Positions 39,704-62,118 of a stretch of DNA of 62,523 nucleotides are shown one piece after another; position 1 is the stretch's first letter, and each line of letters opens with the position of its first letter. The DNA is from Clostridia bacterium (GTDB lineage: Bacteria; Bacillota; Clostridia; Oscillospirales; CAG-272), in assembly GCA_017456145.1 (NCBI GenBank), contig JAFTJZ010000073.1, positions 1 to 62,523 of the forward strand, written 5' to 3'. A model generated the notes under the pieces. The model did no database searches. It was not told the DNA's origin and was given only the letters and a program-made list of their open reading frames with translations. The position numbers and the translations under genes were made by a program.

Positions 39704-42028
39704 TCAGGGCGAAAAGACCCTTTCCCTCCACGCGGCGAAGAAAGTCAATAGCAGTGCAAAGCAGGCGTAAGCGAGAGCCCACGGGCACAGATCGCTCTGT
39801 GTGAGCAGCGGAAACCCTGCAAGATATGAATTTGGGAACAGAAAAGGCAGCGCATCCTCGCCAAACAGCGTCAAGAGCTTGGCAGTGAAGGCGGTAAGTG
39901 ATGTGAGAATGACCGTCGGGACGGTCGCGCGGAACAGAGCGGACAGTGCCACGATGATAAGTGAGAGCAGCACCATGCCAAGCGTGCGCAAAAGGACGGT
40001 TGTAAGCGTCACCTGCAGCACGGAGCCGTCCGGTATACTTTGTCCCATCAGGCTGTAGGCGGGGGCGTGGAGCGCGGGAAGATCGTAGTTTTTCATCAAA
40101 ATCAGCCACCGCGCGGCTTGTGCCGCCAATGTCATAATGGTCGTGAAGGCGACCGTCCATGCCATCTTTGCCGCAAAGGTGCACCTTCGTCCGCGCGGCG
40201 TGCTGTAAAGGACAGATGAGAAACCGCCCGTGTGCTCATCGGCAAAGATCGCGGCCAGCGTCAGGATCAAAAAGGCGATCAGACAGACGTCCTCGTCCTC
40301 CTGCAAAAACAGCAGCCAACCCGTATCGTAAAGAACGTATGGGGCTTTTCCCTCGGCATGCAGCATGGAAAGATAGTGCAGCTTTTCATCCACTCGCTCC
40401 ATATGCTCCAGCCGCTGCATTGCAAGGTTGCCTGCTGCGATCAGCTCTCCGTATTCTTCATAGGTGATCTCGCCGTTCTCAAAGCGCGACTTGCCCTCGT
40501 CCACAGCGTCGGCTGCCGCGCGCAGCTTATCCTTTTCCTCTTGCATGGTGATCTGCGTCTGCTCGGAGTATTCGCCCTCCAGCAGCGTCATATATTCATG
40601 ATACAGAGCATCGGGGAGGGTCTCGTTCGGGGCGTAATAAGTATCAACGGCGTGATATTCTGCTGCGATCAAAAGGAGCAGCAGCAACGAAAACATCTGC
40701 TGCGACACCAATTTATGCAGCTCCCATGCGCCGATGTGAACGGAATAGGTGCGTGCTTTTTTATCTGCACGGCGCAGCGCGTGGTCTTGTCTGTGCGGTA
40801 TCACCTTTCTAAGACGGATCAGCACAGTCGATTGCACCCGACCGCTCACGCGGCAGCGGCAAAACGTCACTGCAGTCAGGATAAAGAGCAGCATCGCGAT
40901 ACCGAGCAGCCACGGAACGAGCATTTTCTGCAGCACCACGCAGCTCTTTCCGATGCGAAACGCATTCCAACGCGTCAGAAAATCATTCCCCTGTAAAATA
41001 TCCATCAGATTCAACTGCCCAATGGGACCATGCGCATTCCAACGTCCCAACAGTGAAAGCCCGTATGATGCAGCAAGCACTCCACCGCCGATGCCGAGCA
41101 ACGACACGTACCGCTTGGTAAAAATGCTGAGCAATAGCATCAGCCATACTAAGCCAATGCCCCCCATAGCACGCAATGCAAGCTGTAACAGTACACCACC
41201 GATCACACTGCAAGCAAAGGGGGCTGTGGTGAATACACTTTGCAACGGAAGGAGCGCACCGCCAATGCCGGTACGACTTACAATCAGAACACCATGCAAT
41301 ACCGCAAACGCCAAAAGCAGTACAATGGAACCCACAGCTCCGGCAAGCAATTTTGCGAAAATGAGCGACAGCCGCCCCCGTCTGGTCGTGCGCAAAAGCG
41401 GCAACATGGTGCCCTTCTCGGGGAGCAACAAAAGTGCTCCGAGAATCAAGAGCGCGGCAAGATAAAACGGCAGATACCCCTGATCCTTCAGAATCACATC
41501 CCAGCCATCTACAATTTCCGCAGGAATGACGATATTCTTTTGGAGTTGCCGCGTATAATGATTGATCATGCCCACCTGGTAACGGACGACGAAATCGCTC
41601 TCCTGCCGCCCACTTTGTAAATAATTATAGTGTTGGAGACGCGCCGTTTCGATGGTGTCTTGAAGAGTTGACTCATATCTGCGGGTGTTGTCCAAAAAAC
41701 GGATAAACGCCGAATCCGCGATATACGTCTCGTAGGCAGCCCTGAGCTGCGGTGACTGCTCCTTTCCGTTCGGCTCGCTAAAACTATCCAAGGTCGCCTC
41801 ATAATCCTGCACCATCCTGACACGGGCACGCACCTCCTTTTCATACGCGGTGCCCCGCTTTCGATATTCCTCAAGGCAAGCATCGACCTGCCCTCGGTGC
41901 TCTCCGTAGCGTACTGTGCGCGGTGTACGCAGGCAAAGAATGGCACTGACGGTCAGCAGCAGCGCGACGGTCACAAGAAATATTTTATTCTGATATAGCT
42001 TTCTGCATTCACCGAGCCATATATTCAT
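39704..42028 (-). CDS. ABC-2-type permease, tandem-duplicated (774 residues), copy 1
   Basis: The protein is two similar halves joined at about residue 440. Each half starts with ECRKLYQNKIFLVTV or WELHKLVSQQMFSLLLL, a membrane segment, a 120-150 residue outside region rich in YHEYM/AYETYI-type helices, a (Y/V)DTGW or similar strand, then about five membrane segments. That equals a full ABC-2 permease pair in one chain. It lies 15 bases after a three-cysteine lipoprotein. No ATPase is in this operon; the nearest is at 53.2-54.1 kb. Its paralog is at 45.2-47.6 kb. Confidence 0.75.
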   Translation of the reverse strand: MNIWLGECRKLYQNKIFLVTVALLLTVSAILCLRTPRTVRYGEHRGQVDACLEEYRKRGTAYEKEVRARVRMVQDYEATLDSFSEPNGKEQSPQLRAAYETYIADSAFIRFLDNTRRYESTLQDTIETARLQHYNYLQSGRQESDFVVRYQVGMINHYTRQLQKNIVIPAEIVDGWDVILKDQGYLPFYLAALLILGALLLLPEKGTMLPLLRTTRRGRLSLIFAKLLAGAVGSIVLLLAFAVLHGVLIVSRTGIGGALLPLQSVFTTAPFACSVIGGVLLQLALRAMGGIGLVWLMLLLSIFTKRYVSLLGIGGGVLAASYGLSLLGRWNAHGPIGQLNLMDILQGNDFLTRWNAFRIGKSCVVLQKMLVPWLLGIAMLLFILTAVTFCRCRVSGRVQSTVLIRLRKVIPHRQDHALRRADKKARTYSVHIGAWELHKLVSQQMFSLLLLLLIAAEYHAVDTYYAPNETLPDALYHEYMTLLEGEYSEQTQITMQEEKDKLRAAADAVDEGKSRFENGEITYEEYGELIAAGNLAMQRLEHMERVDEKLHYLSMLHAEGKAPYVLYDTGWLLFLQEDEDVCLIAFLILTLAAIFADEHTGGFSSVLYSTPRGRRCTFAAKMAWTVAFTTIMTLAAQAARWLILMKNYDLPALHAPAYSLMGQSIPDGSVLQVTLTTVLLRTLGMVLLSLIIVALSALFRATVPTVILTSLTAFTAKLLTLFGEDALPFLFPNSYLAGFPLLTQSDLCPWALAYACFALLLTFFAAWRERVFSP

Positions 42029-42043
42029 ACGCCGCCCTCACAC

Positions 42044-43255
42044 TCACTCCAATCTTCTTCCCTGCTTAAAATCGACGAATTCCCAGCCGTTCTCCCCCTC
42101 GACAAGATTGCCACATCGGGGGATCGCATAGCTTGGAATTCCTCCATCCCCGACTTCAAAGGAAAGGTATATTTCTCCGTCAAAATATTTCATGCCGTTG
42201 ATCCGTCCATTACCACCCACGGTCGCCGTATGAAACACCAGCTCGGGACGGTTGTTCTCCCCCGCCAAGGCAATGCGGTAAAGGGCACGCTGATTGTTGT
42301 CCGTCAGGTACAGATGCGTATCACTCACGGTTTGGAATATGCCCATTCCTTTGATATCGGTGGCAAAGACGTGTTTTTCCTTGGTCAGAAGGTGATAGGA
42401 ATAGTAATTCACCGTGCCATCCTCAAGGATCTCCTTATTATAAATATAATCTCCGTGAAGAATGTTAATTCCGGTTATATTCGAGTCCAATTTTTCATAC
42501 GTATCAAACGTTTCGTTGACTTTGTACAGTTCAAACTCATCCATAAACATAACAATCATGTGACGATTTCCGACCCAAAGGTTACTGAAGATCTTACCCT
42601 CGGGCGGGGTCAGGATCTCTGCCTTTTCGGTCTTGACGTTGTAGCGGATATGCTCAAGGCCGCCGTCCTTCAAGTTGCGCGTCACGTATACGTAATCTCC
42701 CTGTACCTGGAAAAAGCGCAGCTCGTTGCCATTGCCACTGAACACTTTTTTGCTTTCCATGGTATCTACCGTCATGGAATAAAGATTTCCGTCATTGGAG
42801 CCAAATATAGTGGCATCCGCACGGCTGCCGTACAGCTTGCCGTCTGCCGGGCTGTAGATCCTCATGCCTTCTGCCAGTTCGCTCATGCCGCCGAAAAAGA
42901 CCGCGGGACACCACCCCATTTCATGCTCGCACAGAGCATCCATGCAAAAACTGCTTGTCACCTTGGAAGCTTTATTGACATAGCAAAGTTCGCCCTCTTG
43001 AATAAATACCATGCCGTGCGCGTTGAGAAATTCATTCCGCCCCATAAGGGTCATCGCATAGTCGTTCTCATCAAAGCGAGTCGTATCAATCGGCACATTG
43101 TCCTCCACACGCTCGGGCTCCCCCGACGCATTTCCCTCCGCCTCCGGTTCACTCTGCTCAAAATTCTCCGGTAACATCTCCTCATCGGTACAAGCGACCA
43201 AGCCCGTACATATACAGCACAATCCCAATATCAGTGCGATCCATCTTGTTTTCAT
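42044..43255 (-). CDS. Three-cysteine beta-propeller-like lipoprotein (group A), copy 1
   Basis: The 403-residue protein has a signal peptide and lipobox GLVACTDE (Cys22), followed by an acidic linker. The family block MVFIQEGELCYVNKAS is followed by FCMDALCEHEMGWC. Downstream repeated strand motifs (GNLYSMTVDTMESKKVFSGNGNE, HIRYNVKTEKAEILTPPEGK, DNNQRALYRIAL) look like beta-propeller blades. It directly precedes permease copy 1, so it is probably its outside partner. Confidence 0.75.
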   Translation of the reverse strand: MKTRWIALILGLCCICTGLVACTDEEMLPENFEQSEPEAEGNASGEPERVEDNVPIDTTRFDENDYAMTLMGRNEFLNAHGMVFIQEGELCYVNKASKVTSSFCMDALCEHEMGWCPAVFFGGMSELAEGMRIYSPADGKLYGSRADATIFGSNDGNLYSMTVDTMESKKVFSGNGNELRFFQVQGDYVYVTRNLKDGGLEHIRYNVKTEKAEILTPPEGKIFSNLWVGNRHMIVMFMDEFELYKVNETFDTYEKLDSNITGINILHGDYIYNKEILEDGTVNYYSYHLLTKEKHVFATDIKGMGIFQTVSDTHLYLTDNNQRALYRIALAGENNRPELVFHTATVGGNGRINGMKYFDGEIYLSFEVGDGGIPSYAIPRCGNLVEGENGWEFVDFKQGRRLE

Positions 43256-43292
43256 GCGTTTGTTCCTCCCATTTTCGTTCTGTATTACAGAT

Positions 43293-44366: not shown

Positions 44367-44404
44367 ATGGACTCCTGTATATATGTATAGGTATCTTTTG
44401 TCTT

Positions 44405-44550: not shown

Positions 44551-44581
44551 ATAATAAAAACAAATGCGGAGGAACACCACC

Positions 44582-45139: not shown

Positions 45140-45153
45140 ACGCATATACACGG

Positions 45154-45201: not shown

Positions 45202-47553
45202 TTATGTTTCTCGTCGCTTGGCAAGCAACCCAAGGACAAGAGTAAGCACACAAGCACAACCGGACGCGGCACGCACGGTGGCATCGAGCAGCACAGGAGT
45301 GGCGCACAGCAGATTGTTGAGCGTCCATGCATCAAGCAGCGTCAAGCCCAGCAGCGAGAGCAACCGCGAAAGATAGACCGCCATACCGCAAAGCAGCACG
45401 GTCGGCAGTGTCATGCGACAAAGCGCCGACAGCGACACGGTCAGTGTGGCAAGCAGGGTCAATCCCAGCGCCCGCAGTACCATCACACCGATCACCAGAG
45501 TCAAAACGGAAACGGAGGATGTCAGCGTTTCCATGCCGCTTATGCTGACAGCCGGTGCGCCCGGGGCGGGCAGATCGTAATGCAGCGAGAGTGCGATCAG
45601 CCGCACGGTATTTTGCAACAACGAGAGTCCCGCCCCTGCAGTGAACGTCAATGCCATCTTGGCAGCAAAGCTTCGGCGTCGCCCGTGGCGTGTGGTGCGC
45701 AGGATGAAAGCAAAGCCCCCGCTGTATTCATCGGCAAACAGCCCCGCAAGAAACAGAATGACCACCGCCGCGGCAACGTCAAAATCGGTATCCTGCAAAT
45801 ATAGTCTCCAGCCTGTGTCGTAGACGAAGGAGGCGGAGAGTCCCTTCTCGTTCAGATTTCGCAGCACGCGGTTACGCTCCAGCACGGCGTCAAACGCCTC
45901 GATGCGCATCTCGGCATCGTTCGCCTCGGTGTATAGCGCGCGAAAGGTCTCCTCATCCAACGCGCCGCTCTCCAGCTGCTCGATCAGTGACTGGCGGGAG
46001 GCAGCCAAGGCGGAAAGGCGAGCCGCCTCGGCTTGGATCGCGTCGGATTTTTCCTGCGTCCACGGCCCTTCATAAAGCAACATATACTCGTGGTAGACGT
46101 TATCGTCATACGTCTGCAACGGCGCGTAGTCCTCCCCCACGGTCTGCGCCTCGGCGACCACAAACACGGCAATGCAGAGCAGCGCGAGCAACCGTTGCAG
46201 ACGCTTACGCCACTCCCAGCCATATATACTGCTGTAGCAAATACGGGTACGACGCGGTCTTTGGCGAACGATGCGGCCAAGCGCCGAGCGCGCTGTCTGA
46301 ATCAGTGTGTCCACCCACTTCTGCAATCGGTTGTAGCGCCCTGCAGCGGTCAGCGGAATGGGGCAATGCCGTCCTACGTAGCCCCATACGATCAATGCAC
46401 CGAGCAAGAGCAGCGCGGCAAGCAAAAACAGCGGCAGCGTTATGATATAATCCACGCTCCACGGTCCGAAATAAAACGCATTCCATCGAGTCAGATACGA
46501 GGAGTTTTCCAAAATCGTCAGAAGGTTGAACAGGTGAAACAGATTGTGCAGATGCGTCTGTCCCCATAAACTGAGAAGATAGGAGCCTGCAATAAGAGCA
46601 CCACCCGCCCCAAGCGCGCTGACCGTATGTCGGATCGGCAAGGTCAAAAGCAGCATCGTCCAGACGAACACCGTCCCCGCAGCGCTTTGCACGGCAAGAC
46701 GCAAGAACAGCCCACCCAGCACCGTCGTTCGATATGGGGCGGTGACAAAGACATACTGCAGCGGTAAAAGCCCACCGGCAAGTCCCTCTCGCACAATGTA
46801 TACGGTGGCAGGGATCAGAGCAAAGAAAAGCGTCAGCACAAGGCTCATCAGCGCACCGACCGTCATCTTTGCCGCGATGGTCGTCCCCCGCCCCCCTTTG
46901 GTTGAACGCAAAAGCAGCAGCATCCCACTCTTCTCGGGCAACAGCAGCAGCACCGCTCCCACCAATAGGGCAATCAAAAGAAATACCTGATAAGAATCGT
47001 CATTCAAAATGCGGTCGTATCCTCGCACCTCTCCCACGGGGAAGTCGATGTCCCAGCCCAGCTGCTCGGTATAGTGTGTCACAACACCGACCTGATAGCG
47101 TACGACAAAGCTCGCCTCGGGGATGCCGCTGCTCAGATAATTATTATAATTCTTCCGCGCGGTGAGAATGACCTCGGAGAGCGTTTCGCGGTAATCGTCC
47201 TCGCGATCCAGAAGAGCGACAAAGGAACGGTAAGCGCTGCGGCGGCGGTATTCCGCATACTGCGCCTCGGTAAGCGGGTAGGTCTCCCCACCCGCATCGT
47301 TAAAGGCGCGGATCTCACTCTCCAGCTGCTCCAATGCCGCCAGTCGTTCTCGCACGTCCTTCTCGGTGCCCTCGGGGTCTGCCTCATACATGGCAAGATA
47401 TTCTTGTACGACCTCATCCTGCGCCGTCCCTCCCGCGGGTTGACGAAACGCAACGTAAGCGCAGAGCAGCGCAAGAAACAAGAGCAGCAGCAAAAACACT
47501 CTGTTGCCCGTCAGTTTTTTCATCTCGCCCTTGAGAATGTGCAAGTAGGTCAT
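45202..47553 (-). CDS. ABC-2-type permease, tandem-duplicated (783 residues), copy 2
   Basis: The layout is that of copy 1, with shared marks SDFVVRYQVGM/ASFVVRYQVGV, LLLPEKG-ML-LLRTT/STKGGRG and YHEYMLLYEG. The N-half begins MTYLHILKGEMKKLTGNRVF and the C-half YGWEWRKRLQRLLALL. About 12 membrane segments are visible, with two large outside loops rich in acidic helices. GC content is clearly higher than in the lipoprotein genes upstream. AAAGGAGCTGTT precedes the ATG. The first ~43 codons are duplicated at 48.8-48.95 kb. Confidence 0.78.
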   Translation of the reverse strand: MTYLHILKGEMKKLTGNRVFLLLLLFLALLCAYVAFRQPAGGTAQDEVVQEYLAMYEADPEGTEKDVRERLAALEQLESEIRAFNDAGGETYPLTEAQYAEYRRRSAYRSFVALLDREDDYRETLSEVILTARKNYNNYLSSGIPEASFVVRYQVGVVTHYTEQLGWDIDFPVGEVRGYDRILNDDSYQVFLLIALLVGAVLLLLPEKSGMLLLLRSTKGGRGTTIAAKMTVGALMSLVLTLFFALIPATVYIVREGLAGGLLPLQYVFVTAPYRTTVLGGLFLRLAVQSAAGTVFVWTMLLLTLPIRHTVSALGAGGALIAGSYLLSLWGQTHLHNLFHLFNLLTILENSSYLTRWNAFYFGPWSVDYIITLPLFLLAALLLLGALIVWGYVGRHCPIPLTAAGRYNRLQKWVDTLIQTARSALGRIVRQRPRRTRICYSSIYGWEWRKRLQRLLALLCIAVFVVAEAQTVGEDYAPLQTYDDNVYHEYMLLYEGPWTQEKSDAIQAEAARLSALAASRQSLIEQLESGALDEETFRALYTEANDAEMRIEAFDAVLERNRVLRNLNEKGLSASFVYDTGWRLYLQDTDFDVAAAVVILFLAGLFADEYSGGFAFILRTTRHGRRRSFAAKMALTFTAGAGLSLLQNTVRLIALSLHYDLPAPGAPAVSISGMETLTSSVSVLTLVIGVMVLRALGLTLLATLTVSLSALCRMTLPTVLLCGMAVYLSRLLSLLGLTLLDAWTLNNLLCATPVLLDATVRAASGCACVLTLVLGLLAKRRET

Positions 47554-48778: not shown

Positions 48779-48954
48779 ACGAATTTTTCCTCACAAAACG
48801 GGAGCGAAAGCGAGAGTCTCGCCCCCGTCCCTCCCGCGGGCTGACGAAACGCAACGTAAGCGCAGAGCAGCGCAAGAAACAAGAGCAGCAGCAAAAACAC
48901 TCTGTTGCCCGTCAGTTTTTTCATCTCGCCCTTGAGAATGTGCAAGTAGGTCAT
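48775..48954 (-). pseudogene. Truncated permease 5' end (59 codons), overlapping the next lipoprotein
   Basis: The first 43 codons are nearly identical in DNA to those of permease copy 2 (MTYLHILKGEMKKLTGNRVF onward). After GGGACGG the sequence switches to a GC-rich repeat and the frame continues to a TGA that overlaps the ATG of the lipoprotein below. The product would be one membrane segment. This marks a lipoprotein-permease unit whose permease was deleted after lipoprotein copy 3. Confidence 0.8.
48800..48831. repeat. 32-bp repeat upstream of lipoprotein copy 2
   Basis: GGGAGCGAAAGCGAGAGTCT plus CGCCCCCGTCCC is identical at 51428-51459, upstream of lipoprotein copy 4. In both places a similar 20-bp stretch leads into the ATG. 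It marks duplicated 5' regions and the deletion junction of the permease fragment. Confidence 0.85.
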
Positions 48955-48986: not shown

Positions 48987-50126
48987 TTACGGATGAATGA
49001 TCTCAAAATCCTCTGCGACAAAGCCGCTCTCCGTCTCACTCAGCTTACCGTAGACGAACGTGGGCTTAAGGTCCACGTATGTTTTGTAATAATAGTAGAT
49101 GGTCCCCTCAAAGCAGCTCACCTCCATGAGAATACCCGGGAAATCACCGAGGTGCTCCACGCTCCCATCCGCGAGAGCCACGCGATACAAGGCCTTTCCC
49201 TGTTGATAATTACCGGAGCTATCCTGATAATACTCCGAATAATATACGTATTCCCCGTCAAATCCCAGGGTCAGAATCGGCGTATTTCCGTCCAGAATGA
49301 CATGCTGCTCCTCCTCGTGTACACTCTGATAACACAAGCCCGTCACGCGAGACTGATCATTCCTGACGTTGCCTATGGCAAGATCGCCGTTCAGATATAC
49401 GATGCTCGTCACGTTCGTCGGGGTATATTCGGTAAAATCCGCATCGGCAAGATACCACCCCGCATCATCCGTAAAGGAAACGAGGATCGTATCTCCGCTG
49501 ACATAAAGGATTTTGGTAAACGTGCGCCCCTCAGGCGGCATGATCTCCTCTGTCGTTTTACTCTCTACATCGTAGCGCATGAGCCGATAGCCACCGTTTT
49601 CGCGTTCCATTGTAAACAAAATGTATTGATCGTACGCGTAAATATATTTTGTCAGATCATTTCCGTTTCCTATCCAGGCAAGGCTGACCTCCTGTGTCAT
49701 GGCTTCGATACAGTACAGCTCTGTCCCGTATCCGGTCCCGTTTTGAACGGTCGTTCCGTAGAGATTCCCATCGTACGGATGATAAACCAGATTGCGCGGC
49801 ATATAAAAGTACTGCGAAACACAACTTGTATGCTCGCAAAGGGGGTCAAGGCAAAAAATGCGCTCCTCCCCGCTCGCCTTATTCACGTAATACAACGTTG
49901 CGCCGCGTGCCTGATCGGTCACCAGCAGCATACCCGGCAAATTCAGCATAAATTCGGACTGCTGCTCAATCACGCTGTATTCATACAGCGAGGTGTCGAT
50001 CTCGGCCGGCTCGGGTGCGGTGGGAGTCTCCTCCTGCTCCTGTGACACGGGATCTTCGGGCATCTCGGTGGTGCAGGACGAAAGCAGCAGCACTGCGGCA
50101 ATCACAATCATACAAATTCGTTTCAT
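48987..50126 (-). CDS. Three-cysteine beta-propeller-like lipoprotein (group A), copy 3
   Basis: The 379-residue protein has lipobox LLSSCTTEMPE (Cys18). The cysteine block is YYVNKASGEERIFCLDPLC then EHTSC. Blade-like segments include LYCIEAMTQEVSLAWIGNGND, LMRYDVESKTTEEIMPPEGR and ILYVSGDTILVSFTDDAGWY. The C-terminal end (YGKLSETESGFVAEDFEIIHP) is nearly the same as that of the distant copy at 61-62.1 kb, linking these two as closest relatives. A permease 5' fragment follows it. Confidence 0.78.
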   Translation of the reverse strand: MKRICMIVIAAVLLLSSCTTEMPEDPVSQEQEETPTAPEPAEIDTSLYEYSVIEQQSEFMLNLPGMLLVTDQARGATLYYVNKASGEERIFCLDPLCEHTSCVSQYFYMPRNLVYHPYDGNLYGTTVQNGTGYGTELYCIEAMTQEVSLAWIGNGNDLTKYIYAYDQYILFTMERENGGYRLMRYDVESKTTEEIMPPEGRTFTKILYVSGDTILVSFTDDAGWYLADADFTEYTPTNVTSIVYLNGDLAIGNVRNDQSRVTGLCYQSVHEEEQHVILDGNTPILTLGFDGEYVYYSEYYQDSSGNYQQGKALYRVALADGSVEHLGDFPGILMEVSCFEGTIYYYYKTYVDLKPTFVYGKLSETESGFVAEDFEIIHP

Positions 50127-51537: not shown

Positions 51538-52797
51538 TCATCTTACTTCCTCATCCCCCACGGGCAATTTTTGAAACGTCCAGACGCCGTCCTGATCCTG
51601 CGTCAACGTGCCGTAGCGGTCGACAAAATACCCGCTATTGCTTGCTTTCAGATGGCAATATATGGTGCCGTCGTAGACCACGACCTGATCCACGTTCATA
51701 TCATACTTTAGACCTGTATGCTCCTTCCCGAAATTGACCATCGGCTCGGGCTCGCCACCTTCAATCGGCACACGGTATAAAATACGGCCGAACGCCGAAA
51801 CAACCGTGGTGGTTCCCGCTTGGATCGGGTTGAGCAGATAATATACATATCCACCGCCATATCCTACCACGCAAACACTGAATTCATCTCCTGCATAGGT
51901 GATGATGGTTTCTTTTTCTTCCGTATCGATATTGATTCGACAGATGGAGCGCGCGCTGCCGTCCCATCCTGCCGATACCCCATTGACATTTTCCGCAATA
52001 TACATCATATTTTGATCGATGTAAATCGGTTGCAAGGGCAGGCTTGTCGCAACAAAATGACTAAAATTATTATTTGTCTGATATATTGTTCGATAATTAT
52101 CGTTAAAGATGACCAGAATTGTATCCCCGCTGACCATCAGGCTTGCAAATTGTTTCCCTGCAAGCGGGGTCATTTTTTCCGCTTTCTTTTTGATTGGATC
52201 GTACCGGATGATCTCGTGATATCCGTCTTTGTGCTGGCGGCTCAAGAAAATGTAGTCCTCGTTGGCGTAAATCTGACTGATCGGAGTTCCGTTTCCCTCA
52301 TATACCATTTCATATTCCTGCGTGTCAAGATCGATGCAATACAGGTTCCCATCGCTCTTTGCTGTCGAATCCACATCCTCCGGCGGCTCTGCGGTTGCAT
52401 ATACGTTATCATCCGCTACCGACCACACCCAATTTTCCACCCACTTAAAATCTCCGCCGTAACCACCCATACAGTAATGGTGGTTGCATAACGGATCAAA
52501 GCAAAAATAGTACTCCGTCACATTCGCCTTATTGACATAGGACAGATGGATGCCTCCATAATGTGCTTCTTGGTCATTGAGCAATACCATCCCCGGGAGG
52601 TTGACAAATTCCGTCAATCGCATAGAATATACCATGCTTTCGTTCGGCGTATACAAAGAATCGTCGATGATACCGTAATCAATCATCTCTTCCTCTGAAT
52701 CGTCAATCTTGTATTCGTCCGGCATGGAAGCGGCGCAGGAAATAAGCAATAGCACCGCCAAGAGCAGCGCAGCATAACGCAATATATGTTTCTTCAC
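51538..52797 (-). CDS. Three-cysteine beta-propeller-like lipoprotein (group A), copy 5
   Basis: The gene starts with GTG after AGGGGGTAAAAAGT. The 419-residue protein has lipobox LLISCAASMPDEY (Cys21) and the block SYVNKANVTEYYFCFDPLC then NHHYC. Blade-like segments include LYCIDLDTQEYEMVYEGNGT and SLMVSGDTILVIFNDNY. It is the tandem twin of copy 4 and ends DRYGTLTQDQDGVWTFQKL. Confidence 0.78.
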   Translation of the reverse strand: MKKHILRYAALLLAVLLLISCAASMPDEYKIDDSEEEMIDYGIIDDSLYTPNESMVYSMRLTEFVNLPGMVLLNDQEAHYGGIHLSYVNKANVTEYYFCFDPLCNHHYCMGGYGGDFKWVENWVWSVADDNVYATAEPPEDVDSTAKSDGNLYCIDLDTQEYEMVYEGNGTPISQIYANEDYIFLSRQHKDGYHEIIRYDPIKKKAEKMTPLAGKQFASLMVSGDTILVIFNDNYRTIYQTNNNFSHFVATSLPLQPIYIDQNMMYIAENVNGVSAGWDGSARSICRINIDTEEKETIITYAGDEFSVCVVGYGGGYVYYLLNPIQAGTTTVVSAFGRILYRVPIEGGEPEPMVNFGKEHTGLKYDMNVDQVVVYDGTIYCHLKASNSGYFVDRYGTLTQDQDGVWTFQKLPVGDEEVR

Positions 52798-52818
52798 ACT
52801 TTTTACCCCCTATCTTTG

Positions 52819-53058
52819 TCATGACCTATCCTCTCCGCACAGCGGCGTAAAGCTCCAGGAGCCGTCCATGTAGACCGGCTTATTTGCCACGGTTGCGGTG
52901 TAATCCGAAAAATCGCCGTCGATGAGACAGAGCATCGGGTCATCCATAAAGTTAACCATAATGATCTCTCCACTGACGCAAAGAGCAATGAACGCGCGTC
53001 CATCGGGCAAAGATGCCGTCAGCAGCATGCACGCCATGCGGCCTCGGTTTCGTTTCAT
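52819..53058 (-). pseudogene. Remnant of a group A lipoprotein (79 codons)
   Basis: After a basic start (MKRNRGRMACMLLTASLPDG) the frame matches only the middle blade of the family: RAFIALCVSGEIIMVNFMDD, then GDFSDYTATVANKPVYMD. The lipobox and three-cysteine regions are deleted, as is the C-terminal half. It is first in the operon behind the motif at 53.15 kb, and AAGGGGAATATCA precedes its ATG, so it may still be translated. Confidence 0.75.
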
Positions 53059-53145
53059 TGATATTCCCCTTTTGAAATATACATCAGCAAGAGCACGACA
53101 AGGGGAATCACAACCGTATTTCCCCTTGCGTCGTCTCCCTATTCC

Positions 53146-53175
53146 AATAAACACGAATTTTACGCTGATCTTACA
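53146..53175 (-). promoter_or_regulatory. Shared upstream motif of lipoprotein operon 2
   Basis: On the minus strand TGTAAG (53170-53175) is followed after 14 bases by CGTGTTTATT (53146-53155). Including the preceding CA, 22 positions in a 32-bp window match the motif at 62.43-62.46 kb, with equal spacing. It begins the operon that runs to permease copy 2. Confidence 0.55.
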
Positions 53176-53201: not shown

Positions 53202-54113
53202 TTACAATTCTTCCCCAAATACGTACAGATAATAGTCCTCCAGCGTCGGCGCAGTGGTTTTTGAGTCGGGCGTGGGTGCCTCCTCAGCCAGAACACGCAG
53301 CTGCACCTGCCCCGTCTGCTCGTCGCGGTTGATGCTGATCACGCGGAACTTCTGTTGCAGCGCGGCGACGTCAGTCTCGGCGCAGGGCACACTGAAGACC
53401 TTGCCCTCGATCTTGGCGGTCAGCTCGGCGGGCGGTGCGTGGTCAACGATGATGCCTTTTTTGAGCATGATGATCTCGCGCGCGATGTACTCGATGTCCG
53501 ACACGACGTGCGTGGCGATAATCACGATCTTGTCAAACGCGATGCGCGAGATGTAGTTTCGGATGGCGATACGCTGCTTGGGGTCAAGGCCCGCGGTCGG
53601 CTCGTCGAGGATGAGTATTTTAGAGTCGCCCAGCACCGCCTGCGCCAGCGCAAGTCTTTGTTTCATACCGCCCGACAGCGCGCCGATCTTGCGGTGAGGC
53701 ACGTCGTCAAGCTCCACGGCCTTGAGCAAGCCCGCGATCTCGTCCGCAATGTACTGCTTGCGCGCCTTGCCCTTGAGATGCGCACCGACATCCTTGAGTG
53801 CCGCCATGTACCACAGAAATCTCTCAACGGTAAAGGTCGGGTACATCCCGGGGTACTGCGGCATAAAGCCGAGCAGGCTGCGGAAACGTACGCCCATTTT
53901 CAGAACGTCCTCCGGTTCTCCCTCGCCGTCCGCATAGGTGATGCTGCCGCTGTCTGCCTTGAGATTGTCAGTGATGATGTTCATCAGCGTGGATTTGCCC
54001 GAGCCGTTGGGTCCCAGCAGCGCGTAAATACCCGGCGTCAGCTCGGCGGTGAAGTCGGTCAGGGCCTTGTTGGTGCCGTAGGATTTGGAAATTTGGTTGA
54101 TGGAAAGTTTCAT
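53202..54113 (-). CDS. ABC transporter ATP-binding protein of the lipoprotein/permease cluster
   Basis: The 303-residue ATPase has Walker A GPNGSGKST (about 36-44), the signature LSGGMKQR, Walker B ILILDEPTAGLD and the switch histidine in IIATHV. It is of the CcmA type used with ABC-2 permeases. The last 70 residues form an extra C-terminal domain. It overlaps the half-size permease by four bases. It is the only such ATPase in the cluster, so it probably serves the two full-length permeases in trans. Confidence 0.93.
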   Translation of the reverse strand: MKLSINQISKSYGTNKALTDFTAELTPGIYALLGPNGSGKSTLMNIITDNLKADSGSITYADGEGEPEDVLKMGVRFRSLLGFMPQYPGMYPTFTVERFLWYMAALKDVGAHLKGKARKQYIADEIAGLLKAVELDDVPHRKIGALSGGMKQRLALAQAVLGDSKILILDEPTAGLDPKQRIAIRNYISRIAFDKIVIIATHVVSDIEYIAREIIMLKKGIIVDHAPPAELTAKIEGKVFSVPCAETDVAALQQKFRVISINRDEQTGQVQLRVLAEEAPTPDSKTTAPTLEDYYLYVFGEEL

Positions 54114-55189: not shown

Positions 55190-55392
55190 GGGATGGGAGA
55201 ATGACGGCTTGTCGGAGATGCGAGACTTTGACGCTTTATTTCGAACGGCAAGCCGCTCCCCGACGTTGCGGACAAGGACGACGGGGTGTCGAATATGTCG
55301 GGCGTAACGGAGGACGGGGGTGCATCGGAGGATTGACAAGCGACAAGGCAAAGAAATACGACAAACGTGAATGCAGCAAATAGTTTTTTCAT
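55111..55392 (-). pseudogene. Lipoprotein 5' end fused out of frame to the half-permease
   Basis: MKKLFAAFTFVVFLCLVACQ is a complete signal peptide with lipobox, followed by a serine/proline-rich linker. After about 45 codons the frame enters permease sequence in the wrong phase and stops within it. AAAGGACACC precedes the ATG and a strong promoter lies upstream. A deletion from inside a lipoprotein gene to the middle of its permease explains both this frame and the half-size permease. Confidence 0.7.
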
Positions 55393-55449
55393 ATGGTGTC
55401 CTTTCAAGCTACAGATTGCATCAAAAAACAAAAACGCTTTCACAATTTA

Positions 55450-55918: not shown

Positions 55919-57112
55919 TCACTCGACCTCGATCGCTCGAATGATCTCCCCCGTGTCAAAGTGGATCTCGGCGAAGAACCTCTCGCCAAAGGCGTTTGTT
56001 TCCAAATCGAATATGCGAATATCTCCGTAATATATGTCCTCAAAAACGGTAAACGCAACGCCAATAAGATCAATCAGACCACTCTCATCCGTCCAGACGG
56101 GGCGAACACCGCTGCCGTCGTGGTTGCAGGTATAGATCGTATCGCTGCCGATATACTCGTATTCTTCCTCGCCTCCCTCCCCGCGCACAGGCTCACCGAT
56201 CGGGCGCATCGGCTGCTGCGGGAAGAAATAAATGGCATCGTTTGTCAGTGCATAGGTGGCTACGGGCTCATCGACCAGCACGGCATGCTCGCCGCTGACA
56301 GCGTCAAAACGGAGCAGCTGCCGCCCGCCGCCGTTTGCAGGAATGGCGATCTCGTAAAAATAGCCGTCCAAATAGCGCAGTGACACAAAGCCCTCTCGAT
56401 AACCCAGCGCACCGTGATCGATCAGCAGCGTCTGCTGCATCGTCGCAAGATCGGTACGCCAAAAGCCACCCTGATAAGCGGTGTACAAAATGCCGTCTAT
56501 CACATAGTAAAGGATATCCATCCCCGAGCGACATTCATAAACCACCTCATGCGTACCGCTTTCCATATCGTAGCGGCTGATATAGCTCAAATAATCGGAG
56601 AGCAGATCAGGATTGCCTCCTTCTTTGAGCTGCATATTAGAATAATAATAGTAATACTTACCGTCAACGCAGGCACTTTCAAAGGCACCCCGTTCTTCCT
56701 CGGGTAGTGTGAACAGCAGCTGCACGCTCCCCGTCGAAATTTCCCGATAGCAAAAATAATACATATCCTCCTGCGGAACAAATACCGAAAAATACATGCG
56801 GTCGCCGACAAGACTGTGCATGAAACAATATCCGCGCTCCAGATAACACTCCCCGTCACATTCGGGGTCCTCGCAGTATCCCCTGATCAGCTCACCCGTC
56901 TGTATATCGTAGATGGCGTTATACAGCACCAGCGTGTCGTTCATGCGATCCGCCTCGGTGAGCATCATGGTCGACCACGCCTGCAGCACACGGCTTTCAT
57001 AACTGCTCGGTGCCATATCGGGTAAATTCTCCGCGCAGCCGCCAAGACTTACCGCAAGGAGTAAAACGGCAAGAGCGACCGCCATCTTCCGAATTGATTT
57101 TATCATACGCAT
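55919..57112 (-). CDS. Three-cysteine lipoprotein (group B), copy 1
   Basis: The 397-residue protein has lipobox SLGGCAEN and a cysteine block RGYCEDPECDGECYLERGYC, which keeps the C-x-D-x-x-C core of group A but with a DG in place of the histidine. Blade-like strands follow. The last 25 codons are identical in DNA to those of the next copy (75 bp), a sign of gene conversion. An in-frame ATG two codons down has better spacing to AGAAGAG and may be the true start. Confidence 0.75.
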   Translation of the reverse strand: MRMIKSIRKMAVALAVLLLAVSLGGCAENLPDMAPSSYESRVLQAWSTMMLTEADRMNDTLVLYNAIYDIQTGELIRGYCEDPECDGECYLERGYCFMHSLVGDRMYFSVFVPQEDMYYFCYREISTGSVQLLFTLPEEERGAFESACVDGKYYYYYSNMQLKEGGNPDLLSDYLSYISRYDMESGTHEVVYECRSGMDILYYVIDGILYTAYQGGFWRTDLATMQQTLLIDHGALGYREGFVSLRYLDGYFYEIAIPANGGGRQLLRFDAVSGEHAVLVDEPVATYALTNDAIYFFPQQPMRPIGEPVRGEGGEEEYEYIGSDTIYTCNHDGSGVRPVWTDESGLIDLIGVAFTVFEDIYYGDIRIFDLETNAFGERFFAEIHFDTGEIIRAIEVE

Positions 57113-57118
57113 CTCTTC

Positions 57119-58300
57119 TCACTCGACCTCGATCGCTCGAATGATCTCCCCCGTGTCAAAGTGGATCTCGGCGAAGAACCTCTCGCCAAAGGCATTTGTC
57201 TTCAAATCAAATTCCCGCATCCAGCCGTACAGAACACCGTCAACGATGGTGCAGTCTCCCGCATATTCCAAAAGCCCCGTCTGCTCCGTCCAGACCTTGC
57301 GGATATTTTCGCCGTCAAGGTCGCAGGCGAACAGCGTCGGGGAGTCCCCAATGGCTACATAACCGTCGCTTTCGGGAGGATAGATGCTCGGGTCGTTGAT
57401 CTGATGCGGGTCTACGGGCCAGAAATAGATGGCATCGTTGGTAATGCAGTAGTTTCTCACGGGAACATCGCCGACGACCTTGCACTCCCGCGTCTGCTCA
57501 TCGACCACGATCAGATGCATCTCCGTCTGCTCCAAAATGGCGGCGCTGATAAACTTGCCGTCGATATACGCACCCATCGGAAAAACAGGGAGCGGAGGAC
57601 ACGCCCCCGAATGGTAGACGCTTTGCTCCATGGTCGCAAGCTCGGTGATGTAAAACACATCCTCAAGCTTGGTGAACATCCGACCATCCAACACCATAGC
57701 GCACCCTTCTCCCTCGCGCAGCTCGTATACCTCCTCGCGCTCGCCACCGTCCACAGGGACACGATAAACAACCTCGGTATAGCTCTCGGGAAGATTGGGG
57801 TTGCTCTGCTCGTCAAGACGCTTTTCGGTGAAATAGATCCACCCGTCGTCCACCTCAAAAACCCGTCCCGAGCCGGATCGATTGTCCATCTGCATGGTAT
57901 ACAGGATCACATTCTCCCCCGTCAGAATGCTCCGATAACAATAGTAAATATCCTTCCTGTTTCCTGCGCCGAACAGTGAGAAATAAATTCTGCCGTCCCG
58001 CACCGCCTGCACTTCAATTCCGCCCGATTCCCAGATGCAGCTGCCATCACACTCGGGATCCTCACAGAACTCACGCAGCAGCTCGCCCGTCTGACGGTTG
58101 AATATGGTTCCGGTCTTCAAAACGATAAAATCGTTCCAGCAAGTGCCGCCGGGGTATCCCCCGCGCACACGAGATTCATAGGAGAGCGAGGTCTTCATCT
58201 CCGGCAATTTTTCCGCGCAGCCGCCAAGGCTTGCCGCAAGCAAAAGAACGGCAACCGCGGCGCACAACATACGCGTAAGCGATATCATTGTTTTTTTCAT
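57119..58300 (-). CDS. Three-cysteine lipoprotein (group B), copy 2
   Basis: The 393-residue protein has lipobox SLGGCAEK (about Cys28) and the block REFCEDPECDGSCIWESGG. Middle segments FFAEIHFDTGEIIRAIEVE at the end and RVPVDGGEREEVYELREGEG are shared with the group. AAGGAGAACATTC precedes the ATG. It lies six bases from copy 1 in an operon of six genes. Confidence 0.75.
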   Translation of the reverse strand: MKKTMISLTRMLCAAVAVLLLAASLGGCAEKLPEMKTSLSYESRVRGGYPGGTCWNDFIVLKTGTIFNRQTGELLREFCEDPECDGSCIWESGGIEVQAVRDGRIYFSLFGAGNRKDIYYCYRSILTGENVILYTMQMDNRSGSGRVFEVDDGWIYFTEKRLDEQSNPNLPESYTEVVYRVPVDGGEREEVYELREGEGCAMVLDGRMFTKLEDVFYITELATMEQSVYHSGACPPLPVFPMGAYIDGKFISAAILEQTEMHLIVVDEQTRECKVVGDVPVRNYCITNDAIYFWPVDPHQINDPSIYPPESDGYVAIGDSPTLFACDLDGENIRKVWTEQTGLLEYAGDCTIVDGVLYGWMREFDLKTNAFGERFFAEIHFDTGEIIRAIEVE

Positions 58301-58333
58301 GAATGTTCTCCTTTTTCTGATTTATTCATTGCA

Positions 58334-59422
58334 TCATTCTCCGAGCAGCGCATCCACGTATTCCGCATCCACCCACATCGCAGGGCGGACGCCTTGACAG
58401 CGGCTGCCTACATTGCTCCCGACCTTAGTCCCTCCCCCGTAGCCGATGGTTGTCATATACAGCTGCTCCTTGTCTCCGTGCCGAACCCAATATGGGTAAG
58501 AGAGCGCGCCACCGTACATATCCTCGGTCGTGAACCCTTGGGCTTGGACATAGGCGGTGGCAATTCCGATCGCATATTCCGCGGCTAGCGTTCTGCCGAT
58601 CTCAACATAGCTCAAAAGGAATATATAGTCGTCAGCCCTTACGTCCTCAAGATGGACTCTGCGTATACCGGCTCGCTCCCCGTCCGCAAACGCCGTGCGA
58701 TAAAAATCTTCATTCAACCATGTGCGCAGTGTGCGATCCTTGTAGGAACGATAGATTACGGGCTTATCGGCGGTATATGGCAGATATTCAATGACGTAGC
58801 GGCTAACCAGCAAATAGCGGCTTTGATCCTCACTCCGATCAAGGATGAGCCACTCGATCGGCTCCGCACCGTTCTCTACATCGTTGTCCTGCTCATATTC
58901 ACCGATGAACACCGTCGTCTCATACCCATACGGCGACCACGCCGCCTGACAAAAGATCTTTCGATCCCCCGACCATATCCCGCCATCGGCAATCTTTACA
59001 GCGCCCCGATACCAGCCCTCAAAAACGTAGCCCTCCCGCTCGGGAGTGGGCATGGTATAAAATTCCCCTGCCGTAAAATAGATCTCCTGCACCGTGTCAG
59101 TGCCATCGTTCATCTCCAGCTGCACACAGCTGACGGCAGGTTTCCAGCGGTGTTTGAGTGTCAGGTCTGCCGTGACGGTATCGGTCTCAAAGTTCCACTG
59201 CCGCTCACTGCCGCTCTCCTCTACCCACCAGCCCGCGCTGTCGGCGTTGGACTTGCTCTTTTCCGGCGGCTCGGCAAGCCTCTCCCCCGCGGCAACGCGC
59301 ACGGTCTCCACGGTGCCAAGATAATCGTAATCCAGCGTGACCGTATACATCTCGGGCGATTGTTCGCAGGAGACGAGCAGGAATATAATTGCAAAGAAAC
59401 ACAAACTTTTTATTATTTTCAT
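58334..59422 (-). CDS. Lipoprotein with DUF6273-like domain
   Basis: The start MKIIKSLCFFAIIF, eight bases after GGAGG, gives 362 residues with lipobox LLVSCEQS. Residues about 20-160 contain two InlB/Flg_new-like repeats, the second reading YTMPTPEREGYVFEGWYRGA. The C-terminal half reads IEWLILDRSEDQSRYLLVSR then TLRTWLNEDFYRTAFADGER, which is the DUF6273 pattern. It lacks the three-cysteine block. It is embedded among group B lipoproteins and co-transcribed; function is unknown. Confidence 0.8.
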   Translation of the reverse strand: MKIIKSLCFFAIIFLLVSCEQSPEMYTVTLDYDYLGTVETVRVAAGERLAEPPEKSKSNADSAGWWVEESGSERQWNFETDTVTADLTLKHRWKPAVSCVQLEMNDGTDTVQEIYFTAGEFYTMPTPEREGYVFEGWYRGAVKIADGGIWSGDRKIFCQAAWSPYGYETTVFIGEYEQDNDVENGAEPIEWLILDRSEDQSRYLLVSRYVIEYLPYTADKPVIYRSYKDRTLRTWLNEDFYRTAFADGERAGIRRVHLEDVRADDYIFLLSYVEIGRTLAAEYAIGIATAYVQAQGFTTEDMYGGALSYPYWVRHGDKEQLYMTTIGYGGGTKVGSNVGSRCQGVRPAMWVDAEYVDALLGE

Positions 59423-59439
59423 ATTGGGTACCTCCATGT

Positions 59440-60609
59440 TCATTCCACGCGCAGCGCGGGGAGAATCTCCCCCGTATCAAACCGAATTTCGGCAAAGAAC
59501 GGAGCGCTCCATGCATTGCTCTCAACGTCAAAGTGTGACACATTACCATAAAAAACGCCGTCTGCCACGGTAAATCCGTAGATAAAATCGTACAGCCCGC
59601 TCTCGTCGGTCCAGATGTGACGCACGTTGCCGCCGTCCGTGTCGCAAGCGTAGATGGTCGGCGCACATACGTTTGAATACTGCATTTCAAACTCAGGCGC
59701 GCTGACTGTGTGCGGCTGCCGCAGTACGAAATATACCGCATCGTTGGTCACGGCGTAGGATGCCAGAGGCTCCTCGGTGATCAGCTGCCACTCTCCGCTC
59801 TCCACGTGCAAAACTGCGAGTAAAAAGGTCGCCGTGCCCTCGGGGAAGGCGGGCATATACAAATATCCGTCCACGTACTGCAACGCACCAAAGCTTTGGC
59901 GAAAGCCGTTCTCCACGCTGTTGTACAGTGCTCTTTGCTCCCCCGTCGTCAGATCATAACGGTAGATCGTCCCCATATCGACGGTATATACCCCGTTATC
60001 TGCGACCAGCTGAAGACTCTCCGACACACTGCGCGCCATATAGACCATCTCGCTCTCGCCGCCCTCCAGGGGAATGCGGAAGATGCAATCCGCATAATCT
60101 GTCGGATTGTCGCTGTCGCCCCCCTCCTTCAGCTGCGTACGCATATAGTACATATATCCATTCTCGATCCACGCATGCGTCTCCGATGTGCTCTCCTCTC
60201 GCGGCAGCCTCAGCAGCACCTCCACCCGCCCCGTCAAAAGCTCAAGATCACAGTAGAGATACAGATCCTCTGCGGCATAATATTGCGTAAAGTATACGCG
60301 CCCGTCACAGATCTGATTCACGCTCGTATACCCCGCCTCCAAAAAGCAGTTGCCATCACACGCGGCATCCTCGCAAAAGTCTCCTCGGATCTCCCCCGAG
60401 AAGGCATCGTACAAATTGCCCATATCATCCACCGCAAAATCGTGATAAACGCCTACCGTTCCTTGCCAAAAGCCCATGACGCGGCTCTCATAAGCGCCCT
60501 CCGTCTCTCGCTCGAACTCGGGCAGCCTCTCTGCACATCCGCCAAGGCTGAGCGCACAGAGCAGTGCGGCAAGGCTCGCGGCGATGGCGCGTACGTGTTG
60601 ATTTATCAT
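59440..60609 (-). CDS. Three-cysteine lipoprotein (group B), copy 3
   Basis: The start MINQHVRAIAASLAALLC (GAGAGGA site) gives 389 residues with lipobox SLGGCAER. The block RGDFCEDAACDGNCFLEAGY matches group B. The end, FFAEIRFDTGEILPALRVE, parallels copies 1 and 2 but is diverged, so it was not part of their recent conversion. Confidence 0.75.
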   Translation of the reverse strand: MINQHVRAIAASLAALLCALSLGGCAERLPEFERETEGAYESRVMGFWQGTVGVYHDFAVDDMGNLYDAFSGEIRGDFCEDAACDGNCFLEAGYTSVNQICDGRVYFTQYYAAEDLYLYCDLELLTGRVEVLLRLPREESTSETHAWIENGYMYYMRTQLKEGGDSDNPTDYADCIFRIPLEGGESEMVYMARSVSESLQLVADNGVYTVDMGTIYRYDLTTGEQRALYNSVENGFRQSFGALQYVDGYLYMPAFPEGTATFLLAVLHVESGEWQLITEEPLASYAVTNDAVYFVLRQPHTVSAPEFEMQYSNVCAPTIYACDTDGGNVRHIWTDESGLYDFIYGFTVADGVFYGNVSHFDVESNAWSAPFFAEIRFDTGEILPALRVE

Positions 60610-60661
60610 ATCTTTCATTCCTCTCAGATTTCATTTCCTTGGCGGAGCAATCGGATCATGC

Positions 60662-60934
60662 TCACCGCCTGCCCGCATGGGCAAATCGTCTGTGCTGCGT
60701 ATACAATACACCCCCGATCACCGCTCCGCAGATGAGGATCAGCAGCACAAAGTACCAAGCCCCGCGAGAAAGATAGGCATACATAGCCTGCGGCTGCGTC
60801 AGGGCGAGCAGCGATACGAGCTGCCGCGCAGCCACGTACCCGCACATAAGCGCGAGCAGCAAGAGCAGCAGTAAAAACGCTCTGTTGCCCCACAGCTTTT
60901 TGATCTCACCCCTGAGAATGTGTAGGTAGGTCAT
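60662..60934 (-). pseudogene. Permease with internal deletion (90 codons)
   Basis: The first 37 residues (MTYLHILRGEIKKLWGNRAF, LLLLLLLALMCGYVAAR) match the start of permease copy 2. A short unrelated bridge leads to AWYFVLLILICGAVIGGVLY and a basic tail, which resembles the last membrane segment of the family. A large in-frame deletion that left the first and last segments is the simplest view. It lies 17 bases after a lipoprotein, as the intact permeases do. Confidence 0.7.
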
Positions 60935-60951
60935 GGTGGGCTCCATTCTGC

Positions 60952-62118
60952 TCAAAACTTTTTGGGGTGGATGATTTCAAAATCTTCGGCGACAAAGCCG
61001 TCAGATTTTTCGGTTAATTTTCCGTATATGTGTACGGGGCTTCCGTTTTCGTATTCTTTTCGATAGTAATACAACGAATCTTCAAAGGATACAACCTCAC
61101 GAAGCGTTCCGCCGAAGTCATAGACAAATTCCGCATCTCCTCCGTCTATAGAAATGCGATAAAGTATATTCCCAAGCAAATAGCCGGAATCCTGCCAAAT
61201 GTACTCTATAAAATACAAATACGAACCATCAAATCCTGTTGGATGAATCGGCTCCTGCTGCTCTAAAACCACATACGATTCACCATTTTTAATATTGTCA
61301 TAGCGAAAGCCAACACTCGCATGTTGCCCGTTTCGTGTGTCGTACAAAATGCTGATCGCGTCACTGCCGTTCATGTAATAAAAGCCGTTTTGATAATCTG
61401 TTTTCGTGAATTGCCGGAAATTTTCATCTGTAAGATAACAATCCGTTTCGTCTACGAATGTAACAAGAAAAACATCCCCACTGATATACATGACATAATG
61501 AAAATATTTCCCATTCGGTGGCGTCATTACTTCTGCCTTTCCTTTTTCCACATCATAGCGCACAATATCATATCCTGACTCGGTTCTTTTCACGGGGAAA
61601 TAAAGGAATTGTCCGGAAACGCACAAATAATCGGTGTCAATCATATTTCCGTTCCCTTCCCATGCGCAACGCATCTCTTGGGTGTCTCCGTCAATACAGT
61701 ACAAACGACTTCCACCCTTCTTTCCAGGCTCGGGCGGTACACCGTACAGATTTCCATCATACGGATGGTACTGCAACAGTCTCGGCTGATATAGCGTGCG
61801 TGCAACACAATTCGTATGCTTACACAATGAATCAAAGCAATAAATCCTCTCATCGCCGCTTGATTTATTTACATAATATAATGCTGCACCATTATCTTGG
61901 TTGGCAACCAAAAGCGCGCCCGGAATGTTTCTGAAATAATACGAATGCTGGTAAACAGAGGAAATTTGATATTTTGAAATATCAATCTCATCCGCTTTCA
62001 AGAATGCATCCGAGGAAGATGACGAATTCCCTTCCGGGGATGGCATCTCTTGTGCGCAGGATGTCAATGTGCAAACAAGCAGGAAAACAACTAAAAATTT
62101 CAATAATGATTGTTTCAA
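60952..62118 (-). CDS. Three-cysteine beta-propeller-like lipoprotein (group A), copy 6
   Basis: The gene uses a TTG start nine bases after AGGAGG. The 388-residue protein has lipobox LTSCAQEMP (Cys21) and a serine-rich linker. The block YYVNKSSGDERIYCFDSLC continues as KHTNC. It is closest to copy 3, sharing LLQYHPYDGNLYG-type text, the ILYRISIDGGDAE segment and the end SDGFVAEDFEIIHP. It heads a six-gene operon whose permease is reduced to a fragment. Confidence 0.78.
   Translation of the reverse strand: MKQSLLKFLVVFLLVCTLTSCAQEMPSPEGNSSSSSDAFLKADEIDISKYQISSVYQHSYYFRNIPGALLVANQDNGAALYYVNKSSGDERIYCFDSLCKHTNCVARTLYQPRLLQYHPYDGNLYGVPPEPGKKGGSRLYCIDGDTQEMRCAWEGNGNMIDTDYLCVSGQFLYFPVKRTESGYDIVRYDVEKGKAEVMTPPNGKYFHYVMYISGDVFLVTFVDETDCYLTDENFRQFTKTDYQNGFYYMNGSDAISILYDTRNGQHASVGFRYDNIKNGESYVVLEQQEPIHPTGFDGSYLYFIEYIWQDSGYLLGNILYRISIDGGDAEFVYDFGGTLREVVSFEDSLYYYRKEYENGSPVHIYGKLTEKSDGFVAEDFEIIHPKKF

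Follow-up and report, generated by a model that had tools for sequence, protein, structure and literature searches.

What does a 22-kb array of repeated lipoprotein and transporter genes encode, and do its parts belong together? The array in question occupies positions 39704-62118 of a 62,523-nucleotide stretch of DNA from a Clostridia bacterium (GenBank assembly GCA_017456145.1, contig JAFTJZ010000073.1), referred to below as the window, which is one whole contig, C57, of a genome of 2.92 Mb in 117 contigs (95% complete). An initial annotation of this DNA took the array for a candidate new export or sensing system. We find it to be an amplified copy of a module built from lipid-anchored three-cysteine β-propellers, a two-half permease of the ATP-binding cassette 2 (ABC-2) type and a GldA-like ATPase. 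With roughly even confidence, we read this module as one conserved among Clostridia, an ATP-driven envelope machine with exchangeable propeller receptors that is tied to signalling by extracytoplasmic function (ECF) sigma factors or two-component systems.

Composition and layout of the array

The initial annotation had counted nine intact lipoproteins of two groups, two intact permeases of 774 and 783 residues, one half permease and one ATPase, and open reading frames (ORFs) and annotation bear out each item; the lipoproteins fall into six of group 1 and three of group 2, are 379-419 residues long and all carry a lipobox and a three-Cys motif. Its recurring unit, a lipoprotein followed by a permease at 15-19 bp, is likewise found, the measured gaps being 15 nt for lipoA-permA, 19 nt for lipoB-permB and 17 nt for lipoF-permN (MTYLHIL start). 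Five such units can be traced, two of them intact (lipoA-permA and lipoB-permB) and three defective (lipoC with a 130-nt permease 5' relic, a lipoprotein 5' relic with the half permease, and lipoF with permN); permN proves to be an in-frame chimera of two permease types and not a simple 5' fragment. The genes of the array, all on the minus strand save for a flavin reductase, are as follows.

39704..42028, minus: permA, full two-half ABC-2 type permease, 774 residues; ORF 38% identical to permB and matching the permease profile
42044..43255, minus: lipoA, group-1 three-Cys propeller lipoprotein, 403 residues, 15 nt before permA; ORF and annotation
45202..47553, minus: permB, full two-half ABC-2 type permease, 783 residues
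47573..48778, minus: lipoB, group-1 lipoprotein, 401 residues, 19 nt before permB; ORF and annotation
48823..48954, minus: permease relic behind lipoC, covering the first 44 codons of a permB-like gene; 98-99% identical to permB
48987..50126, minus: lipoC, group-1 lipoprotein, 379 residues; β-propeller in an AlphaFold2 model
50168..51406, minus: lipoD, group-1 lipoprotein, 412 residues, 63% identical to lipoE; ORF and annotation
51538..52797, minus: lipoE, group-1 lipoprotein, 419 residues; ORF and annotation
52803..53154 (approximate limits), minus: relic of a further group-1 lipoprotein; lipoprotein profile match of 4e-12 on the 111-residue ORF 52819-53154, with a 53-residue match to lipoC at 52852-53007
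53202..54113, minus: GldA-like ABC ATPase, 303 residues; ABC_tran, 98.9 bits
54110..55213 (5' limit approximate), minus: half permease, C-terminal half only, matching permB residues 430-732; its end overlaps the ATPase start by 4 nt
55214..55443 (approximate limits), minus: 5' relic of a lipoprotein gene, preceding the half permease; ORF 55111-55443 starts with a lipobox signal peptide (by eye)
55919..57112, minus: lip2a, group-2 three-Cys lipoprotein, 397 residues; ORF and annotation
57119..58300, minus: lip2b, group-2 lipoprotein, 393 residues; ORF and annotation
59440..60618, minus: lip2c, group-2 lipoprotein, 392 residues; ORF and annotation
60662..60934, minus: permN, permease chimera, 90-codon ORF (97 codons from an upstream TTG); two related copies on contig C42 of the same genome
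60952..62118, minus: lipoF, group-1 lipoprotein, 388 residues, 45% identical to lipoC; ORF and annotation

Recurrence in other genomes

Chance is excluded as the origin of this arrangement because the lipoprotein-permease module recurs in other genomes. Neighbourhoods were fetched by permease similarity alone; once split permeases had been merged (units of at least 1700 nt) and 90% duplicates removed, 90 permease units were left. Of these, 70 have a propeller lipoprotein no farther than 5 kb away on their own strand, and 31 have two or more within 5 kb. A GldA-like ATPase is found within 5 kb of 56 units, both partners accompany 44, and neither is seen in 8, all of these counts being approximate because the ORF caller used was simple and missed some genes masked by longer antisense ORFs, and because of the many short contigs. 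Failure of lipoproteins and permeases to co-occur elsewhere had been named in the initial annotation as one finding that would undo its proposal; their co-occurrence extends to loci that played no part in building the lipoprotein profile (29/43 units). The same annotation's single shared ATPase is true of the window and does not stand as a general rule, given the 56/90 units above and the six ATPase genes of the same genome (E 1e-35, window gene included).

The association also depends on distance and strand. Among ORFs of at least 250 residues, the propeller-type share on the permease strand is 81/180 within 1 kb, 58/147 at 1-3 kb and 27/142 at 3-6 kb, as compared with 3/166 on the opposite strand within 6 kb and 20/152 beyond 6 kb on both strands. 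When 667 flanking ORFs were clustered in search of a recurrent third partner, the clusters comprised regulators, ABC exporters, probable antisense artefacts, lipoproteins with DUF6273 from the same genome, two-component pairs (four loci) and another two lipoprotein families, each seen in four loci.

Relatives of permB occur in 44 of 146 genomes of its family (E 1e-5, its own genome included), and a permease profile finds 51/245 genomes of the order at E 1e-10 and 35/291 of the class at E 1e-15; a profile built mainly from the sigma-linked group described below finds 6/299 genomes across the phylum at E 1e-15. A scan of named genomes returned 26 loci, 25 of them from metagenome-assembled genomes (MAGs), several from the same MAG, and one weak locus from Clostridium gasigenes. 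The sources, where stated, are roe deer, water deer, goat, sheep, water buffalo, horse and rabbit.

Within its own genome, the permease has relatives on contigs C25, C32, C42, C50 (two frames), C58 and C85, and the propeller profile marks 38 places at E 1e-6. On contig C85 a sigma gene is accompanied by a propeller protein (with one hydrophobic stretch), a lipoprotein, a permease and an ATPase. C58 has a sigma gene, a 439-residue protein, two propeller lipoproteins, an ATPase of 54% identity and a permease, and C42 combines lipoproteins and a permease with a divergent sigma gene.

The layout varies from locus to locus. Seven propeller-type lipoproteins lie within 5 kb of one permease in L086, and nine three-Cys ORFs are found on 20 kb in L102, besides a sigma-linked one. 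In L169 (7718-10716 and 17936-19899), from another family of the order, the permease occurs twice as two half genes, each pair behind its own ATPase and downstream of a sigma gene. On C32 (L033, 752-4185), four very similar tandem lipoproteins of another family, 278-285 residues long, lie upstream of a lipoprotein-permease pair.

Folds and closest known families

The AlphaFold2 model of lipoC is a β-propeller with a predicted local distance difference test score of 91.5. The most constant residues of these lipoproteins are the lipobox Cys and C-x-D-x2-C-x4-C. In the window the three-Cys motif takes the form C-x4-C-x-H-x2-C in five group-1 proteins, C-x4-C-x-H-x4-C in lipoA and C-x4-C-x-G-x-C in group 2, and it is present in 147 of 160 distinct propeller proteins. 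Among the closest known families is Pfam DUF5050, together with PDB 3s25, a 7-bladed propeller protein of Eubacterium rectale that is presumably a DUF5050 protein; the window group differs in being three-Cys, lipid-anchored and permease-linked. Of four window lipoproteins scanned singly, none reaches the DUF5050 cut-off of 27 bits (lipoA 26.2, lip2a 24.1, lipoB and lipoC no match), and relatives match better, at best with E 2.5e-10. Nor do the four three-Cys window lipoproteins scanned reach any NCBIfam cut-off, and in a comparison of 52 lipoproteins with NCBIfam, no family was matched by more than a single one.

The permease model is a single chain with the two halves of an ABC-2 type transporter and with two helical segments predicted outside the membrane, a fold from which an export role might be supposed. 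This agrees with the earlier assignment to ABC-2. That annotation had also allowed that the permeases might belong to a well-described system, and no such family was reached: permA and permB fall short of every Pfam and NCBIfam cut-off, and the permease profile finds no match among PDB sequences. Structure matches are Foldseek's own top chains, a set from which some families may be missing. The chains of NosDFY that the model matches are what we take to be the permease NosY. NosDFY is likewise an ABC-2 type machine with an extracytoplasmic partner and serves as a working analogy; here, however, a single permease chain holds both halves and bears long helical segments, and its constant partner is a β-propeller lipoprotein, whereas NosD is a β-helix. 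Full transporters of the ABCA1/ABCA7 type differ in that the ATPase here is a separate protein, the outer segments are helical and PDB sequences give no profile match.

The ATPase carries an ABC domain (ABC_tran PF00005, 98.9 bits against a cut-off of 25) and resembles GldA without reaching the model of that gliding transporter (184.2 bits, cut-off 402.6). Anti-phage defence was considered and set aside, as PADLOC at E 0.01 returned nothing for permA, permB, one relative permease, lipoC, lip2a or the DUF6273 lipoprotein; the ATPase gave only generic ATPase matches (44) and one sigma factor a single helix-turn-helix match.

Signalling genes beside the module

Sigma genes were counted on stop-to-stop frames, with twice-fetched loci removed and a permease match of at least 300 model positions, giving 107 N-termini, 101 of them distinct at 90% identity. 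An ECF sigma frame directly upstream and an extra permease N-terminus are both present in 17 of the 101, and neither is present in the other 84. Where its start is clear, the extension runs to ~30-48 residues, and its motif is approximately L-F-x-G-I-G-x-I-D-D-x-W (GIDDxW-like). In a FastTree phylogeny of the 101 permeases the 17 sigma-linked ones form one clade with support of 1.0. Thirteen sigma-permease pairs were resolved by the first ORF caller; in 11 of them the two genes share 4 nt, and in the remaining two the overlap is 1 and 14 nt. All seven sigma proteins scanned pass the Pfam Sigma70_r2 cut-off, and region 4_2 is matched in all seven, in three of them below its cut-off. Residue 1 of permB is aligned to residue 2 of the permease chain in NosDFY, which would place the extension in the cytoplasm, where an anti-sigma domain would sit.

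The likeness to an ECF sigma factor with a membrane anti-sigma partner concerns relatives of the window array, where the extension is found in 17/17 distinct sigma-linked permeases. A second kind of link appears in L032 (contig C85 of the same genome), L097 and L102, where the gene behind the sigma gene encodes a propeller protein whose one hydrophobic stretch lies near residue 51-67; the protein of L032 covers positions 7-388 of the 392 in the propeller profile. The motif DDxx(I/V)xxA of the permease extension occurs also in 4 of 10 sigma-linked non-permease proteins (one short spurious ORF excluded). Response regulator and kinase genes lie near the module in L085, L171, L192 and L205. The sensing role suggested in the initial annotation gains support from the ECF sigma genes, from the three sigma-linked proteins with the same propeller and from the two-component genes near four loci.

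Since permA and permB have no extension, the fused-sigma step concerns relatives and not the window array, and the window's only sigma frames (17084-20326 and 25453-26073) lie outside that array. The array may be served by the sigma gene on C42, or it may be constitutive.

An ABC transporter reporting to a regulator recalls BceAB-BceRS, in which a transporter with a large extracytoplasmic part is coupled to signal transduction (PMC3023708). The present module differs in its added propeller lipoproteins, in the ECF sigma partner of one clade and in its permease, as FtsX is absent from the five Pfam families matched by 49 permeases at E 0.01.

A proposed receptor-transporter module

The repeated link between propeller, permease and signalling genes favours a receptor-transporter module, and the presence of many propellers with few permeases per array favours exchangeable receptors. 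We infer that the propellers are most likely such receptors on the outer face of the membrane, each of which would bind an extracellular ligand, our first guess being a peptide or an envelope-active compound. A propeller that has bound its ligand would dock on the outer helices of the permease, and ATP hydrolysis would then serve to remove or export the ligand or to drive a mechanical cycle. The few permeases and ATPases would be common to many receptors, and such sharing would account for arrays in which as many as seven lipoproteins lie no more than 5 kb from a single permease. In one clade the transporter would probably hold an ECF sigma factor through its extra, presumably cytoplasmic N-terminus, releasing it according to occupancy or flux, while at other loci the signal might pass by way of the sigma-linked propeller protein that has one hydrophobic stretch, or through a two-component system.

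For this clade of gut Clostridia we would tentatively, and at somewhat less than even confidence, propose that the ABC permease is itself an anti-sigma factor, its extension holding the ECF sigma encoded by the overlapping gene until the docking of ligand-loaded propellers releases it. Were this so, Gram-positive bacteria would possess a transport-coupled ECF switch, a transporter-receptor with swappable lipoprotein sensors that needs no histidine kinase to inform transcription of its load, and the lipoprotein arrays could be read as a set of receptors for the compounds that these bacteria meet. A recurrent envelope module of uncultured Clostridia is in any case named here, and it poses the question of whether an ABC permease can act as an anti-sigma factor. 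The literature searched, including the accessible parts of PMC7406223 and PMC8103513, holds no description of a lipoprotein-permease-ECF module that we could find, many subscription papers lying outside that search.

Several observations weigh against the receptor-transporter module and its sigma link. No permB match is found in the three same-genus genomes listed, which makes the module accessory. No lipoprotein lies within 5 kb of 20/90 permease units and no ATPase within 5 kb of 34/90, short contigs accounting for some of these and not all, and three propeller lipoproteins on C53 and one on C74 stand on contigs without a permease. The assembly is MAG-like with 7.5% contamination, so that foreign contigs are possible. 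As for the sigma link, the extension motif was defined after its members had been seen, and the 17 sigma-linked permeases form one clade, so the fusion arose once and was kept in every member. The extension's likeness to other sigma-linked N-termini is weak (hhalign probability 27% over 17 columns). No shared ECF-type promoter emerged: AAC-N15-18-CGT occurs 3 times in 24 regions upstream of sigma genes, against 0-7 in twenty shuffles, and the commonest bipartite words there are A/T runs.

Alternative explanations

The best of the alternatives, possible and in our estimation less likely than not, is antimicrobial immunity, in which propellers would capture bacteriocins or other envelope-active compounds, the ABC-2 transporter would expel them and the paralogs would reflect an arms race. 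It would be a special case of the explanation favoured above, with protection as the purpose. LanI with LanFEG, a lipoprotein plus an ABC transporter giving lantibiotic protection (see PMC4828448), offers the analogy of capture and expulsion. A lipoprotein, an ABC-2 permease and an ATPase indeed stand together here, with signalling genes adjoining and gut sources for many of the named relatives. The paralogs are diversified, and the ten lipoprotein and permease pairs computed show synonymous divergence (dS) from 1.4 up to saturation, so that the lipoprotein pairs are old. On the other hand, the ATPase scores 114 bits on the lantibiotic-protection (LanF-type) ATPase model TIGR03740, below its cut-off of 309.75, and the permease is one chain of 774-783 residues. 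Propeller lipoprotein arrays and, in relatives, an ECF sigma link further set the module apart from LanI with LanFEG. No lantibiotic biosynthesis gene was recognised among the flanking genes, which were clustered and not profiled for such genes.

It is a good deal less probable that the lipoproteins are clients of the ABC-2 machine, as are the partner proteins of NosDFY, with the three-Cys loop as the binding site for a metal or cofactor loaded with the machine's help. The His of the motif is Gly in 13/160 propeller proteins and the whole motif is missing in 13/160, and the likeness to NosDFY is one of common fold only.

Least probable is amplification debris, duplicated lipoproteins and decaying permeases with little function beyond one or two units. 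In its favour, the 22 kb hold three relics (one of a permease, two of lipoproteins), a half permease and a chimera, and permB shares a 130-nt block with a relic at 99% identity. Against it, none of the nine lipoproteins is broken, the ratio of nonsynonymous to synonymous divergence (dN/dS) is ~0.15 for lipoD-lipoE (dN 0.28, dS 1.9) and 0.25-0.41 in the remaining lipoprotein pairs with computable dS, and similar intact arrays exist in other genomes.

History of the array

The 130-nt block, which runs from the start of permB, has its 99% identical copy downstream of lipoC and a 72% identical one downstream of lipoF. The latter belongs to permN, which, like two ORFs on C42, is an in-frame fusion of an N-terminus of the permB type with the C-terminus of the permease type found on C42. 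Each of these three chimeras of 90-97 codons (window 60662-60934; L028 35-328 and 1968-2261) lies directly behind a lipoprotein. Over their C-terminal 49 codons, one C42 copy is 92% identical in protein to the C42 permease and the window copy 55%. Between permN and the C42 copies dN/dS is ~0.33, a value to be read with the caution that these are pieces of two permease types, possibly homogenised. To judge from their sequences, the chimeras may possibly be retained small membrane proteins.

In both C42 chimeras, the ATG that comes next starts a run of codons for MKLSIN, which are also the six N-terminal residues of the ATPase (by eye); this suggests an older order of lipoprotein, permease and ATPase. 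In L090, two lipoprotein ORFs on the minus strand (3279-4691 and 4709-6004) have ATPase-like starts (TLSIQNISKSYG and KITINRITKSYG) ahead of the lipoprotein signal peptide, so that the ATPase start, again by eye, may be a seam for array growth. C42 may or may not adjoin the window: an attempt to join it to the window end turned up no common end, the sole end match being one of 18 nt between the window end and C74.

Other genes of the window

Three further genes lie within the span of the array.

43293-44363: further lipoprotein without a Pfam match
44564-45139, plus: flavin reductase
58334..59443, minus: lipoprotein with List_Bact_rpt and DUF6273, 369 residues (Pfam 52.0 and 43.2 bits, above cut-offs); three relatives in L028, the C42 array

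Elsewhere in the window, an ECF sigma gene (25450-26067, within 23333-26067, minus strand) overlaps by 4 nt the gene of a 706-residue protein with a PF09826 β-propeller (241.9 bits) and the N-terminus DDKYVWEA, a sigma-linked propeller of a different propeller family. At 17084-20329 (plus strand), a single ORF of 1081 residues holds both ECF sigma regions, 2 and 4, and continues into a very long C-terminal part with a DUF3108-like match of 32.2 bits. At 26186-28792 (minus strand), a MerR-type regulator has ~800 further residues without a Pfam match at E 0.001.

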